A DNA stretch of 64,000 nt from Mesostigma viride (taxonomy: Eukaryota > Streptophyta > Mesostigmatophyceae > Mesostigmatales > Mesostigmataceae). Both the position numbers and the translations under genes were made by a program. Numbering within the stretch: the first letter of the stretch is position 1; each line of letters begins with the position of its first letter. The stretch lies in the NCBI GenBank assembly GCA_009746045.1, contig RPFO01000079.1, forward strand, positions 6,862,953 to 6,926,952, written 5' to 3'. Of the stretch, positions 562-60,200 are shown piece after piece. The notes beneath the pieces were generated by a model that was not told the origin of the DNA, did not search any database, and saw nothing but the letters and a program-made list of their open reading frames with translations.

Positions 562-3500
562 AACCCGGAGGAGCCATCCGTGCTGGAGGTCGTGCTCATG
601 GCGGTGCTGCGGCGGGTGATTGATAACAACCGCAAGGTGCAGGAGGCCGCGTGCTCCGCGTTCGCCACGCTCGAAGAGGTGCGGCCTTTGGACATTCTCT
701 GGCGGCCGGCTATGTTAAGCATGCTGTCGTATGTCACAGGGTTGTAGCATGCTGCCATAGGGCTGTAGCGTGTGCTCATGGCTTAGGAGTCATCAGTTGA
801 GCGTTTGCCACGCTTGAAGACGCGCGGCCTTTGTCGCTTGCCATTCTATGAAGTGGCTGTCGTAATGCATTTAGGAGTGGCTGTTATTATGAGTATGAGA
901 GCCCTGGGGTCCGTTGAATTGGAGCAACTAAAGCGTTCATAAGGGCGCATGCTCAAGTTCTCTCAAGGCTTGACAAGTTGTGCCTCTTGGGGTATCTACC
1001 CATGGGATGGCTCACATTCAAGGGAATCGGTCCAAAACACGAACGTACCTCATCAACATGTTTCTGTCCGACGCATCAGCACGGCTTTGGTACCTGCCTA
1101 AGGTTAGGGCCTAGGTCTGGTGTTGTAGGTGGTTCCAGCCGTGGCCAACCTGCCTACTTCGGCGACACTAGAATATCGCGTAGGTCCGTGCGTAGTACTC
1201 CTGTGCACTCAGGTCTAGTGGTGAGTCATCTTCTATAGATTCAGCAATATCGGACATATTGGCACCCTCTCTGGTAAAGAGGTTTTTCGCAGTTGGGCTG
1301 TTTCGAAACGTTAAGTGAGATGCCTTTGGATCAGGAGACTCACTGACAGCCGCGAAATCATGCCAAAGGTCCTATGTTCGATTCCTTGCTGGTAGCTTCT
1401 AGGTTTTCTTACTTTCTGTGTTCCGTGGAATCTCAGATTTGGGCAGCTAGCGTTTTCACGTTTGTTGCTTTCTGACGACCTCGTAGGTGATGTGCAACCA
1501 CGGCAACGGAGCTGCATTCGAGTATGCTGGCCAGCCCCTGCTTCCTTGCTGTTACTTTCCCTTTCTTCCTGATGGTGCCCGAGGGTTGTTTGTGCCTATG
1601 GCTTGTGCCTCGGTGCTGGGCTGTGCTTGTCTGGGTAATGGCTGTCCGTGCAGGAAGTGGCGGAGGAGCTGGGGCCCCGCCTGGAGCCCATCCTGCAGCA
1701 TCTGATGTTTGCCTTCCATAAGTACCAGGTAAGGCGCTTGCTTAATAGCTGCCTGGTTATGTTCGCCCGTCCTGCGCACCTGATGTACGCCTTCCATAAG
1801 TACCAGGTAAGGCGCTTGCCCCCTGCAGAACGCATGTGTGCGTTATGTTGCCATGTTTGCCGCCTCGTATGCCGCCTCGCACGTGGACCTGCCTCCAACA
1901 TGAGCCATGTGATAGCTGTTTCGCACAGGATGTCTGGCCAGGCACTGGACCGTTGAACATGCAACCAATAAAAATGTTTCCCTAGGTTTTACATCTTCTC
2001 GCGGGCAAGCATATGGGCACTACCCGGGTGGCAGGACGAAACCCATATTTTCTCCCCGTTTCCGCTGTCCAAAGCGGTGTGGATACTTTCTCGCGCATTT
2101 CCCCCCTTCCCTTCAGTTTTCCTTGCGCATCTCCCCCCTCGTCTTCCTACTAGTTACGCCTGTTATCTCTGCCCATGCAGCTGCCGCACCCACCTTGGTG
2201 CTTCTTCTGTGCCTGTGTGGGTGCGACCCGTGTGCTTTCCTCGCCTCTGCCTGTACCCCCTTACTTACACCTGGGGAACTTGCTGATCCGCTCGCCTCCA
2301 TGCCTGTGCACCTGTGCCGTTGCGGGTGCCAGCGCAAGAACCTGCTCATCCTCTACGACGCAATCGGCACACTGGCGGACGCGGTGGCCGACGAGCTCAA
2401 CCAGGTGGGTGAAACGGGTCGGCAAGGGAAAAGGGGAGGCACACGATGGCATGCGATTGGGAGAGGGGGACAAACCAGGCGGGTGAGGGGACCGAGTTGT
2501 GGCGAATGGGGGCAGAAAGATGGCATGCCTTTTTAATCAGTGAAAATCTTGTGCAGGATTGGATCACGGTGACTCGCGGTGGTGCTGCTGTGCATGTGTG
2601 CGGATGTGGCATTGGCAGGGGCATACTTGTGCCCCGCACTGCTTCTTGCGACAGTTTCGTCTCGCAAGGCCACCCATCGCAGTTGGTGGCTGGTCAGGCC
2701 CCAGCTGGGAGAGAATGCTGAAGGCTCGGGGGGGTCTCGGCCTTGGGGGAAGCAGATGTGGGCTGTGTTTGGGAAATTTGGTGTTTGGATCCTTTGGACA
2801 TGGCCCTTGGGGTATTTTGGCAAGTGATTTGGTTATTCAGGATGAGGACATACTAATGTGCAGTATCAAAGACCTAGGTGCAACCCGAATTCTTGTCACA
2901 TGTGCCCTGCCTGACCTCAGCATGCTTCATCGCATGCTGTGGTACTGTCTTCGACTGACGGCTCTGCTGCCTGATTCTGCTGTTGTCACCCTCCCATCCA
3001 CCCACCCACCCCAACCAAATTGTGTATGCATCCCTCCCTCCCCCATTCCACCACCACCACACCACCATCATGACCACCACCACTACCGCCTCATACTCTC
3101 TCTCTTTCTCTCTTTCTCTCTCTCTCTCTCTCTCTCTCTCTCTCTCTCTCTCTCTCTCTCTCTCTCTCTCTCTCTCTCTCTCACACACACACACACACAC
3201 ACACACACACACACACACAAACGCGCTTTTCCATCCTGCCAGCCGCAACACATTGCCGTGCTGATGCCCCCCCTGATCGCTAAGTGGAACAGCTTGGGCG
3301 ACACGGACCGCGACCTGTTCCCGCTGCTGGAATGCCTCACCTCCATCGCGCAGGCAAGTAGTCACCTTGCCTTTGTGTACTAAAAATGTATACTACAGTA
3401 CTAGTACAAAATGCCTGTCCTGTAATGTTTCGTCCCATGCCATATGGGCACCCAAGTGCCTCACCTCCATCGCGCCAGCAGATGGGCTCGCGTCAGTGTG

Positions 3501-57200: not shown

Positions 57201-60200
57201 CAATGGCACCTGGCATCCCCCCCCTGCAGGTGCCCGACGTTGGCAAGGGCGACGGCAAAGTCTTGGAATGGATCACCCAGTCTTTCGTCGAGCGCGGCTA
57301 TCGGTTGAATGTGAGTGTTAAGCGCCAGCTGTGCACAGACACACTGATGTCTAGCTAGCAAAAGTGTCTCGCTGTTGATGTAGTAGAAAGCTGATGGTGT
57401 AGTAGTACTCCTCTACTGTGCTCCCTGGCTCCGCTTGTCCCCGTGGGAACGGTGCCATTTACGGATGCCAGTAAACCCTCGCTTACACCGCCGTCGTTGC
57501 TGAGTGTGTGTGTGTGTGTGTGTGTGAAGATGAAGGGAGAATGGTTGTTGCTTGGGTGTGGCGTAATGCTGGCCCCGCTCATGCGCAGGGTATCTAGGAT
57601 ATCTTGTATTAAGGATGACCATAGTACTACATGTTGATGACCACTAGGATATCTTATATTAATGATGACCATAGTACTACATGTTGATGGCCACTAGGAT
57701 ATCTTATATTAATGATGACCATAGTACTACATGTTGATGACCACAATAAATAATGATGTATTACAGTTACACATACGTAGTCATGGTATCAATAACCTAG
57801 TCATGGTATCAATAACCAGTTAGGACCTGAGAGCACGAAAGCGGTAATATTGGTTGCTTGCGAGCACGAGTGTGTTGTTGGCAATGAATTGCTTCCTCAT
57901 TAGAAAATAGGTTTACCCTTTATCAACACGTTCCTCTCACCGGCTGCGCCGCCAGTGACCGTTGGGTGCAGACCGTTGGCCCGAGGCCGCACGATGACAG
58001 GTAGCAGTCTAGTCACCGCATCGTGTGATCACACATCACTCCACTATACAGTATGTTCCCTATCTAGGATACTCTAGTACCGTCCAATGGCAGGACACTA
58101 CGTATACTGGGTACTGACATCTGTCACGTACCCCAGTACCCAAAGTACTGACGTACCTATCTAGGGAAACATACGTGACTCGACTAGCCATCCTATCTGA
58201 ATAGCCCACGTGGTATTTATATGCACATACCAAGGTAGGTTTACAAGGCTTATTCATACGTTGTATTCACAATGCCTTTGAGACTTAGTCTGCTGCAAAG
58301 CATGGAGACTAACTTAACCCAGTCATGGTATCAATAACCCAGTCATGGTATCAATAACCAAGTCATGGTATCAATAACCAAGTCATGGTTTGATGACCAT
58401 GGTGCACACAAGCACTTGTATGCGACGGACATGTCTTCATTCGTGTCCCCATGTCTCCATGCATCGCAGGCATGGTGGGTCGTATGAAAGTTGCAGCCCG
58501 CTTCCCTTCCTCAACGCGTGTTTGCTCCCCTCTGCCCCCTGCCCCCCCCCCCCCCCCCCCCCCCCCCGCTTCCCAATCCCCTCGTACCAACCCACCCCGC
58601 ATTCCGTGCACCCCCCCCAACCAACTAACCAACCGACCGACCGACCGGCCGACCGACCGACCAACCGACCGACCGACCAACCAACCGACCGACCGACCGA
58701 CCGACCGACCGACCGACCGACCGACCGACCGACCGACCGACCGACCGACCGACCGACCGACCGACCGACCGACCGACCGACCGACGACCGACCGACCGAC
58801 CGACCGACCGACCGACCGACCGACCGACCGACCGACCGACCGACCGACCGACCGACCGACCGACCGACCGACCGACCGACCGACCGACCGACCGACCGAC
58901 CGACCGACCGACCGACCGACCGACCGACCGACCGACCGACCGACCGACCGACCGACCGACCGACCGACCAACCGACCGACCGACCGACCGACCGACCGAC
59001 CGACCGACCCATGATCAATACATCCGGTACCCCCAGATCGAGAAACGCCTGCAGACAGGGTCCATGGGCTGCCCCCAAACGCGCGAGCGCCTTATCCTGA
59101 TGGCGGCCCGCGACCCCATCCCAGTCCCAGGCATGCCCCGCCCAATCTGCGCCCCCCACGAGGAGCACAAGACCAAAGTAAACATCGCGTTCACCAGAAG
59201 CCACCTGGCCAACCCGGTCCCTGTGGACCGCGCCTCGCTGGCTCGTTTTGATTGGAAAGAGATCGCGGAGCCCACTGTCGAAGCGATGGCACCAGTGGCA
59301 ACGGCTTCTGGAAAGGGAAAGGCGACCAGGGAGGGAAGGATGAAGGATGAGATGCTGCCGGCGGCCAGTCAAGTTCTGAAGGAGGCTGCTGCAGTGCCGT
59401 CTGCTGGATCGAAGTACGTTCAGAATCTGACACCACTCCCTCGGGCTCGGAAAGCAACGGCAGTTGACACGCCGTCTGTGGCGGCGTTGGCCACTAGGGC
59501 CATCGATGCCGCCGTTGTGGCGATCGAGGCCGCCGGAGCCGCCGTAGCAGCGGGAGGGGGAGGAAGCCAAGGAGCAGGAGAGAGAGCCAGCGGAGCGGAC
59601 GTAATGATGGCGACCGCTACAGCAGCCGCCGCTGCAGCAGCCACCGCCGCCGCAGCCGCCGCAGTGGTAGCGACCAGGGTGCGAGCCACAGGACAGGTGG
59701 CAGCGGCAGGCAGCGCATTGGAGCGAGCGTGCGGAGGAGGGCCCGAGGACTTTATTGCGGTCGCGGACAGTAGCATTAGCTCCTGGGGGGACGCCAGCAG
59801 TCCCGCTGGATCCTGTGGTAATGCTGGCGGCTGTGGTGCTGTGGCTGGAGGCGGCAAGCTTGGGGGCCCAGTCCACTCTGGCTCCCATGCCGCGGCCAGC
59901 GATTGGTGCAGTCAGTTTGAGGGGCCGGCTCAACCGCCAGAGCCTCCCTTACGTGGTTTGGTCTTGGGTGACGCGATCTCATGCGACCTTCCCCGCCACG
60001 CAGAGAGTTACCGCCGCAGATTGAAGAAGGCGGAGGAGAAGAAGTGCTACTACACGGGGCCACCCCCCACCGTGTACATTCAGTACCTGCGGCAGGTGGG
60101 TGCCGCTTCGTACAACATAGTAGCGACGTCAAGTGGGGGTTGCCGCATGGCTCAGAGGGTTTAGCCGCATGGATGACAGGGTTTGCAGCAGGTGGGTGAT

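Follow-up and report, generated by a model that had tools for sequence, protein, structure and literature searches.

Copies of exon–intron junctions within the introns of Mesostigma viride genes

Do introns lengthen by taking in copies of the exon–intron junctions that bound them? The question is raised by a 64,000-nt stretch of DNA from Mesostigma viride, a deep-branching streptophyte green alga; this one stretch, to which all our results refer, is called the window below. According to passages of the published genome description, Mesostigma introns have a mean length of 1142 bp and repeats make up 30.1% of intron space (PMC6947507). A first-pass annotation of the window had described introns of its transportin, CstF-64, NADH-cytochrome b5 reductase and C5 DNA methylase genes as built from decayed copies of neighbouring junctions. 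Gene models, for which we relied on open frames and splice consensus, gave a sample of five genes (the fifth encodes an FKBP-type isomerase) with 39 introns and 78 junctions. All but one uncertain methylase acceptor, that is, 77 junctions, were tested.

Junction copies and their proposed origin

Each junction was represented by 25 bp of exon and 25 bp of intron, aligned to at most 500 bp of the adjoining intron and compared with 200 dinucleotide shuffles. At shuffle p < 0.05, the adjoining intron holds a copy at 24 of the 77 junctions (approximately 4 expected), and 18 of the 77 score above all 200 shuffles, which confirms that decayed junction copies are present in these introns. With other introns as a control, 25 of the 77 junctions reach p < 0.05. 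Searching the 24 significant junctions iteratively, we obtained 31 copies at 22 of them, and all but one of the copies (30/31) contain both exon and intron columns. They are found on the donor and acceptor sides and in four of the five genes, which agrees with the more than 20 copies at about 15 junctions, likewise on both sides, that had been claimed. The FKBP gene has no copies (0/8 junction and 0/70 interior windows).

Copy identity spans from 43/43 (CstF-64 exon 3 acceptor) to approximately 70%, so the copies differ in age, as the earlier description of different stages of decay had it. By coordinate sum, they account for about 1.8 kb out of 32.6 kb of intron sequence. The copies do lengthen the introns, but at under 6% of intron, the statement that introns are built from them is too strong. 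Among the titles and abstract openings listed by searches of the open-licence PubMed Central literature, we found no description of junction copies as a rule in introns.

The copies are direct, with lags of mostly 60–250 bp; inverted junction copies were detected at 0/77 junctions at p < 0.01 and at 2/77 at p < 0.05. Exon-edge windows are copied in 10 of 78 tests and exon-interior windows (exons longer than 400 bp omitted) in just 2 of 77, both weak, so the exon copies are contiguous with the junction. Such edge-linked copying is what would be expected from contiguous duplication across a junction with the exon left intact. In several copies, gapped alignments extend across much of the unit, and others show longer, weak alignments. 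Mismatches at the three codon positions number 41/255, 39/261 and 67/265; of 111 codons that changed, 29 did so synonymously. Judged from these alignments, the copies look to be decaying neutrally, with a free copy compared to an exon in which mostly third positions change.

The explanation that we favour, with a probability of roughly 60%, is that small local tandem-type duplications cross a junction, are tolerated as the exon-proximal site stays in use, and then decay neutrally. Small direct duplications would arise locally along genes, either through slippage or when paired nicks or breaks are repaired. Duplications breaking an exon would be lost, and those inside an intron or across one exon–intron junction would be tolerated, the latter because the splice site beside the intact exon remains the one used. 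The junction copy would then end up in the intron, lengthening it, and would afterwards decay without selection. The apparent preference for junctions would derive in part from the conserved exon, which keeps old copies recognisable, and in part has no explanation yet. Local duplications are also carried by intron interiors and intergenic DNA, which supports this reading.

We infer both the repair mechanism and the use of the exon-proximal site at every junction. At transportin donors 1–5, the exon-proximal sites agree with P0048 (eukprot jgi/Mesvir1), a Mesostigma viride gene prediction rather than transcript evidence. P0048 contains transportin exons 1–6, and the transportin protein from the window is 100% identical to it over 46% of the length. 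The small tandem duplications formed by nick repair, in plants among others, are a plausible source of short direct duplications such as those described here (Schimmel et al. 2021, PMC8355091); the passages of that paper, which lists Vaughn and Bennetzen (2014) and Schiml (2016) among its references, describe no junction preference, and the likeness to Mesostigma is one of inferred mechanism.

Junctions compared with intron interiors

If junctions, and donors above all, were hot spots at which mutation gives rise to short local duplications in M. viride, introns would grow from their edges; possible causes are paired nicks, R-loops, or an exon edge that coincides with a boundary of chromatin or methylation. 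We consider this possible rather than probable. In a window test, a match had to score above all 100 shuffles, and microsatellite-rich windows and targets shorter than 60 bp were excluded. Donors matched in 13 of 39 cases and interiors in 46 of 450 (Fisher P = 2.2e-4; 2.4e-6 without minisatellites), which argues for hot spots. Acceptors alone argue against them, with 7/38 compared to 49/423 for interiors (P = 0.16 with minisatellites; 0.016 without). Intergenic DNA gave 10/239 and 12/242, respectively. The densities at junctions, in interiors and between genes are not equal, equality being what the first-pass annotation had named as evidence against its claim.

Windows that take in only intron sequence at the edge show hardly any enrichment (6/39 and 3/34, compared to 46/459 and 39/422 for interiors), which also counts against hot spots, as does the dependence on distance. 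The match rate peaks 75–150 bp from the donor and is not monotonic, and for acceptors it is equally high far away (22/117) when minisatellites are counted. Of the earlier proposal that introns grow at their junctions, one part stands, namely that real, direct and contiguous copies add intron length; a junction-directed mechanism is not established, given the acceptor and intron-edge results.

Local repeats were also collected by a lag-by-lag scan, which is ungapped and can split units, and those scoring at least 15 were treated as families. The sets without minisatellites vary, the flag being applied per pair in one analysis and per family in another. Without minisatellites, 17 of 28 families span a junction, compared to 3.1 expected by length, and with minisatellites 18 of 33 do so, compared to 4.1, corresponding to junction shares of 0.61 and 0.55. 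This excess is again in favour of hot spots. Intronic identity (over at most 40 bp) is 0.67 or less in 10 of the 18 junction families, and no interior family lies below 0.74 (0/15). Furthermore, 11 of the 18 have no junction-spanning pair that reaches a score of 15 from intron columns alone, in part because the copies hold little intron, several being young.

A visibility effect, in which exon conservation keeps junction copies detectable, was considered as the source of most of the junction excess and dropped. When the exon columns are subjected to two-sided decay, 15.2 of the 18 junction families stay detectable beside the 15 interior ones, compared to 3.7 of 30 expected (P = 6e-07). This correction, which covers substitutions only (indels and deletions are handled in the simulations), removes just about 3 of the 18, and we therefore give more weight to the hot-spot reading. 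The excess holds when families are required to have an intronic identity of 0.7 or more (8 of 23 at junctions, 3.2 expected, P = 0.006) or of 0.9 or more (5 of 13, 1.6 expected, P = 0.015). Against hot spots, by our own reading of the scan, six of the eight junction families in the former group have their best pair inside the intron and not across the junction, and young tandem arrays (e.g., units of 68, 48, 80, 61 and 50 bp) are mostly situated in interiors.

We ran forward simulations with uniform duplication, fixed exons and indels, including one regime with transposon dilution of interiors and one with insertion turnover. In the gapped window test, the simulated junction/interior ratio is 0.95–1.72, with comparable values in a further set of simulations, and the observed ratio about 2.4, or 4.3 without minisatellites. 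Uniform duplication combined with visibility bias gives 1.6–2.2 times the placement expectation, compared to 4.4–5.5 times observed. In the family test, the simulated mean junction share is 0.15–0.20 and 0.09–0.18, with a maximum of 0.34 in 180 replicates. When all duplications stem from one old burst, with decay or indels increased, the mean share is 0.12–0.31 and the highest of 80 replicates reaches 0.50; that one old-burst replicate with many indels comes so high weakens the case for hot spots. In these models, visibility explains the junction excess only in part. It should be noted that the residual excess rests on one window, on models chosen by us and on a test carried out once the pattern was known, which likewise tells against hot spots. 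The wider proposition, that Mesostigma viride junctions, donors above all, are duplication hot spots genome-wide, with introns growing outward and spare splice sites continually being made, is in our view doubtful.

Tandem duplication and its alternatives

Several observations weigh against local tandem-type duplication followed by neutral decay. The observed junction share of 0.55–0.61 lies above all 260 simulated windows, as hot spots would have it, and uniform duplication does not fit the positions. Aligned-column identity is nearly equal in the exon part (0.812) and the intron part (0.801) of the copies, whereas decay on one side should make them differ; the difference may be masked by gaps and local-alignment bias. 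At the threshold used, tandem continuity is not significant in 16 of 22 copies. Three young ones, the copies of the CstF-64 exon 3 acceptor, the reductase exon 4 donor and the transportin exon 2 donor, look short and spaced, unlike plain tandem units, and possibly reflect filler or a spaced repair event.

Significant tandem continuity, meaning homology between the spacer and the corresponding flank, is present in 6 of the 22 copies, which weakens a single-cause picture of full tandem units. Exon parts of the copies are shorter than those simulated for 100- and 150-bp units at T=2, with P = 0.06 at T=0.6 and P = 0.33 for 60-bp units, a comparison that decides nothing.

Copies lacking continuity are also what would remain if short nearby segments were captured during break repair (repair-mediated duplication) instead of being duplicated in tandem. 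The perfect 43-bp copy of the CstF-64 exon 3 acceptor, whose 72-bp spacer has no detected homology, is consistent with such a process, and duplicated splice sites are known in human repair-mediated duplications, with four partial exon/intron donors among 824 in the passages of Pace et al. (2009, PMC2671141). As described there, these duplications resemble the Mesostigma copies in being short and local and in including splice sites. They have a mean length of 162 bp and an average distance of 1.2 kb, with pairs within 50 bp excluded, whereas the Mesostigma copies are direct only and mostly 60–250 bp apart. Capture predicts a source in either orientation and independent of junctions. This is not what we found: at p < 0.01 there are no inverted junction copies, although the same passages report an inverted exon copy, and exon-interior segments are scarcely copied alone. 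Since decay can erase the continuity of old tandem units, its absence is also compatible with tandem duplication, and we regard capture as unlikely.

Retention of the copies by selection, as decoy or alternative splice sites, is very improbable. Of 19 donor copies, 14 retain the splice dinucleotide (16 when every GC is accepted), as do 9 of 11 acceptor copies, and some copies equal or exceed the splice consensus of their master, both of which selection would explain. However, retention in 23 of 30 copies is not clearly above the approximately 65% expected from a per-site identity of approximately 81% (P = 0.14), and the synonymous rate looks neutral. An open in-frame insertion would result at only 1 of 17 copy sites examined (for two of which, the acceptor copies of transportin exon 6 and reductase exon 3, the register used was off by a few bases). 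At this site, the transportin exon 2 donor, use of the copy would add 26 open codons in frame. The sequence does not favour splicing at the copies, whether as decoys or as alternative sites.

Papers on intron gain by tandem duplication cite Gao and Lynch (2009), Hellsten (2011) and Zhuo (2007). That the copies are relics of intron birth through tandem duplication of an AGGT-bearing exon segment can practically be set aside: the mutation class is the same and is called prevalent in passages of an intron-gain review (PMC3443670), but the signature is absent, with matches (p < 0.05) between upstream exon end and intron end in 0/39 cases and between downstream exon start and intron start in 0/38.

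As in the intron-gain duplications described in passages of PMC3443670 and PMC2891723, small duplications with splice motifs reshape gene structure; unlike in those cases, the Mesostigma introns have no flanking duplicated exon ends, and no intron gain was seen. In the potato RdRp gene, a tandem duplication crosses an intron–exon boundary and, like copies described here, bears an intron end, a 3' splice site and an exon start (Ma et al. 2016, PMC4974935). According to the passages of that paper, a new intron was made via a cryptic donor, whereas the Mesostigma copies are situated inside existing introns and at many junctions.

Copies along the host genes and their significance

The last 14 exons of the transportin gene (562–10321, plus strand) keep the frame open in 14 of 14 cases, and the product matches Transportin-1, a solved structure, with E=1.5e-129. 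Junction copies are found in introns 1, 2, 4–7 and 13 and, weakly, also in introns 10 and 12. The copy of the exon 1 donor (master 678) lies at 785–865; its splice GT is now GC, and the core (658–690/801–833) has an identity of 0.88. The exon 2 donor (master 1728) is copied at 1770–1852 with CAG/GTAAGG intact and an identity of 0.93, and the exon 4 GC donor (master 3353) at 3455–3513 with a spacer homologous to the right flank (p=0.01). Exon 6 has an acceptor copy (master 4075) at 3942–4005, with AG retained, and three donor copies (master 4203) at 4248–4332, 4357–4411 and 4525–4573, all three with GT retained and one with tandem continuity (p=0.003). P0048 runs through the donor of this exon, at the three-copy junction, and ends in the intron (4203–4260). 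The exon 7 donor (master 4819) has a copy at 4986–5021 and a second match at 4889–4910, in which GT is lost. Two copies of the exon 14 acceptor (master 10235) occupy 10013–10185, with an 87-bp unit and tandem continuity (p=0.003). A young interior array of about nine near-identical 68-bp tandem units fills 7654–8257 of a transportin intron.

The reductase gene (30463–41794, plus strand) has ten exons with the frame open across 10/10 and matches a solved b5 reductase with E=8.9e-67; a scan for relatives in viral contigs confirmed none. AG is retained in the acceptor copies of exon 3 (master 32920; 32795–32861), exon 4 (master 34310; 34217–34243) and exon 7 (master 37361; 37267–37320), and in both copies of the exon 5 acceptor (master 35470; 35267–35420), each of which has tandem continuity (p=0.003). 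The exon 4 donor copy (master 34360; 34410–34461) matches over 38 bp at 0.97 with GTGAGT intact. Three copies of the exon 5 donor (master 35647) follow a 93-bp tandem unit at 35705–36080. The exon 8 acceptor (master 38608) is copied at 37926–37990 and 38430–38465, with a third match at 38084–38106, and the exon 8 donor (master 38721) at 38780–38848 with CTG/GTGAGT intact. Two introns of the window start with GC instead of GT, at 3354 (transportin exon 4) and 36804 (reductase exon 6). The last reductase intron contains an interstitial array (41023–41372) of 50 copies of the 7-bp telomere-like unit AGGGGTT.

The CstF-64 gene, with nine exons on the minus strand (21116–29569), carries Pfam domains RRM_1 and CSTF2_hinge on exons 1–5. 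Its youngest copy, also the youngest overall, is the perfect 43-bp copy of the exon 3 acceptor (master 27488–27530) at 27603–27645. A 60-bp unit adjoins the exon 3 donor (master 27331) at 27231–27281, two copies of the exon 4 donor region (master 26432) lie at 26066–26296, and the exon 5 donor (master 25230) is copied at 25108–25131 with GT retained. The reading frame of the 812-nt Met/Pro/Gly-rich exon (22246–23057) is broken; our guess is that a small intron is hidden there or that G-runs were misassembled.

In the methylase gene (part; 51215–60095, plus strand), the DNA_methylase match (E=9.5e-14) covers exons 3–5 and the start of exon 6, the start of exon 2 is uncertain, and exons 1, 4 and 6 scanned one by one gave no Pfam match. 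The exon 2 donor (master 54552) has a copy at 54776–54836, and the exon 4 donor (master 56129) has copies at 56225–56267 and 56676–56733, with weaker matches at 56583, 56745 and 56802. The five-exon FKBP-type isomerase gene (43899–47014, minus strand) was identified by FKBP_C (E=7.9e-16). Between these two genes lies a 1.8-kb TCCC-type array (49080–50925). By eye, transposon-like stretches at 33200–33640 and 57920–58310, in introns of two different genes, resemble each other. A reverse-transcriptase-like frame at 12478–13341 (RVT_1, E=6.4e-07) is right at the Pfam cut-off, and the long open frame adjoining it (13605–14963) has no Pfam match.

The junction copies are a real feature of a known mutation class, notable for their density and with a junction excess that is partly unexplained. 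They document how introns have lengthened in a deep-branching streptophyte whose introns are long. Should junctions truly be favoured, this would be a route of intron growth tied to splice sites, which would also supply candidate alternative sites and whose rate could be measured. If the preference is only apparent, the case illustrates to what extent exon conservation can imitate a targeted process. Either way, the copies are relevant to gene annotation, as P0048 enters the intron at transportin exon 6, a junction with three copies.

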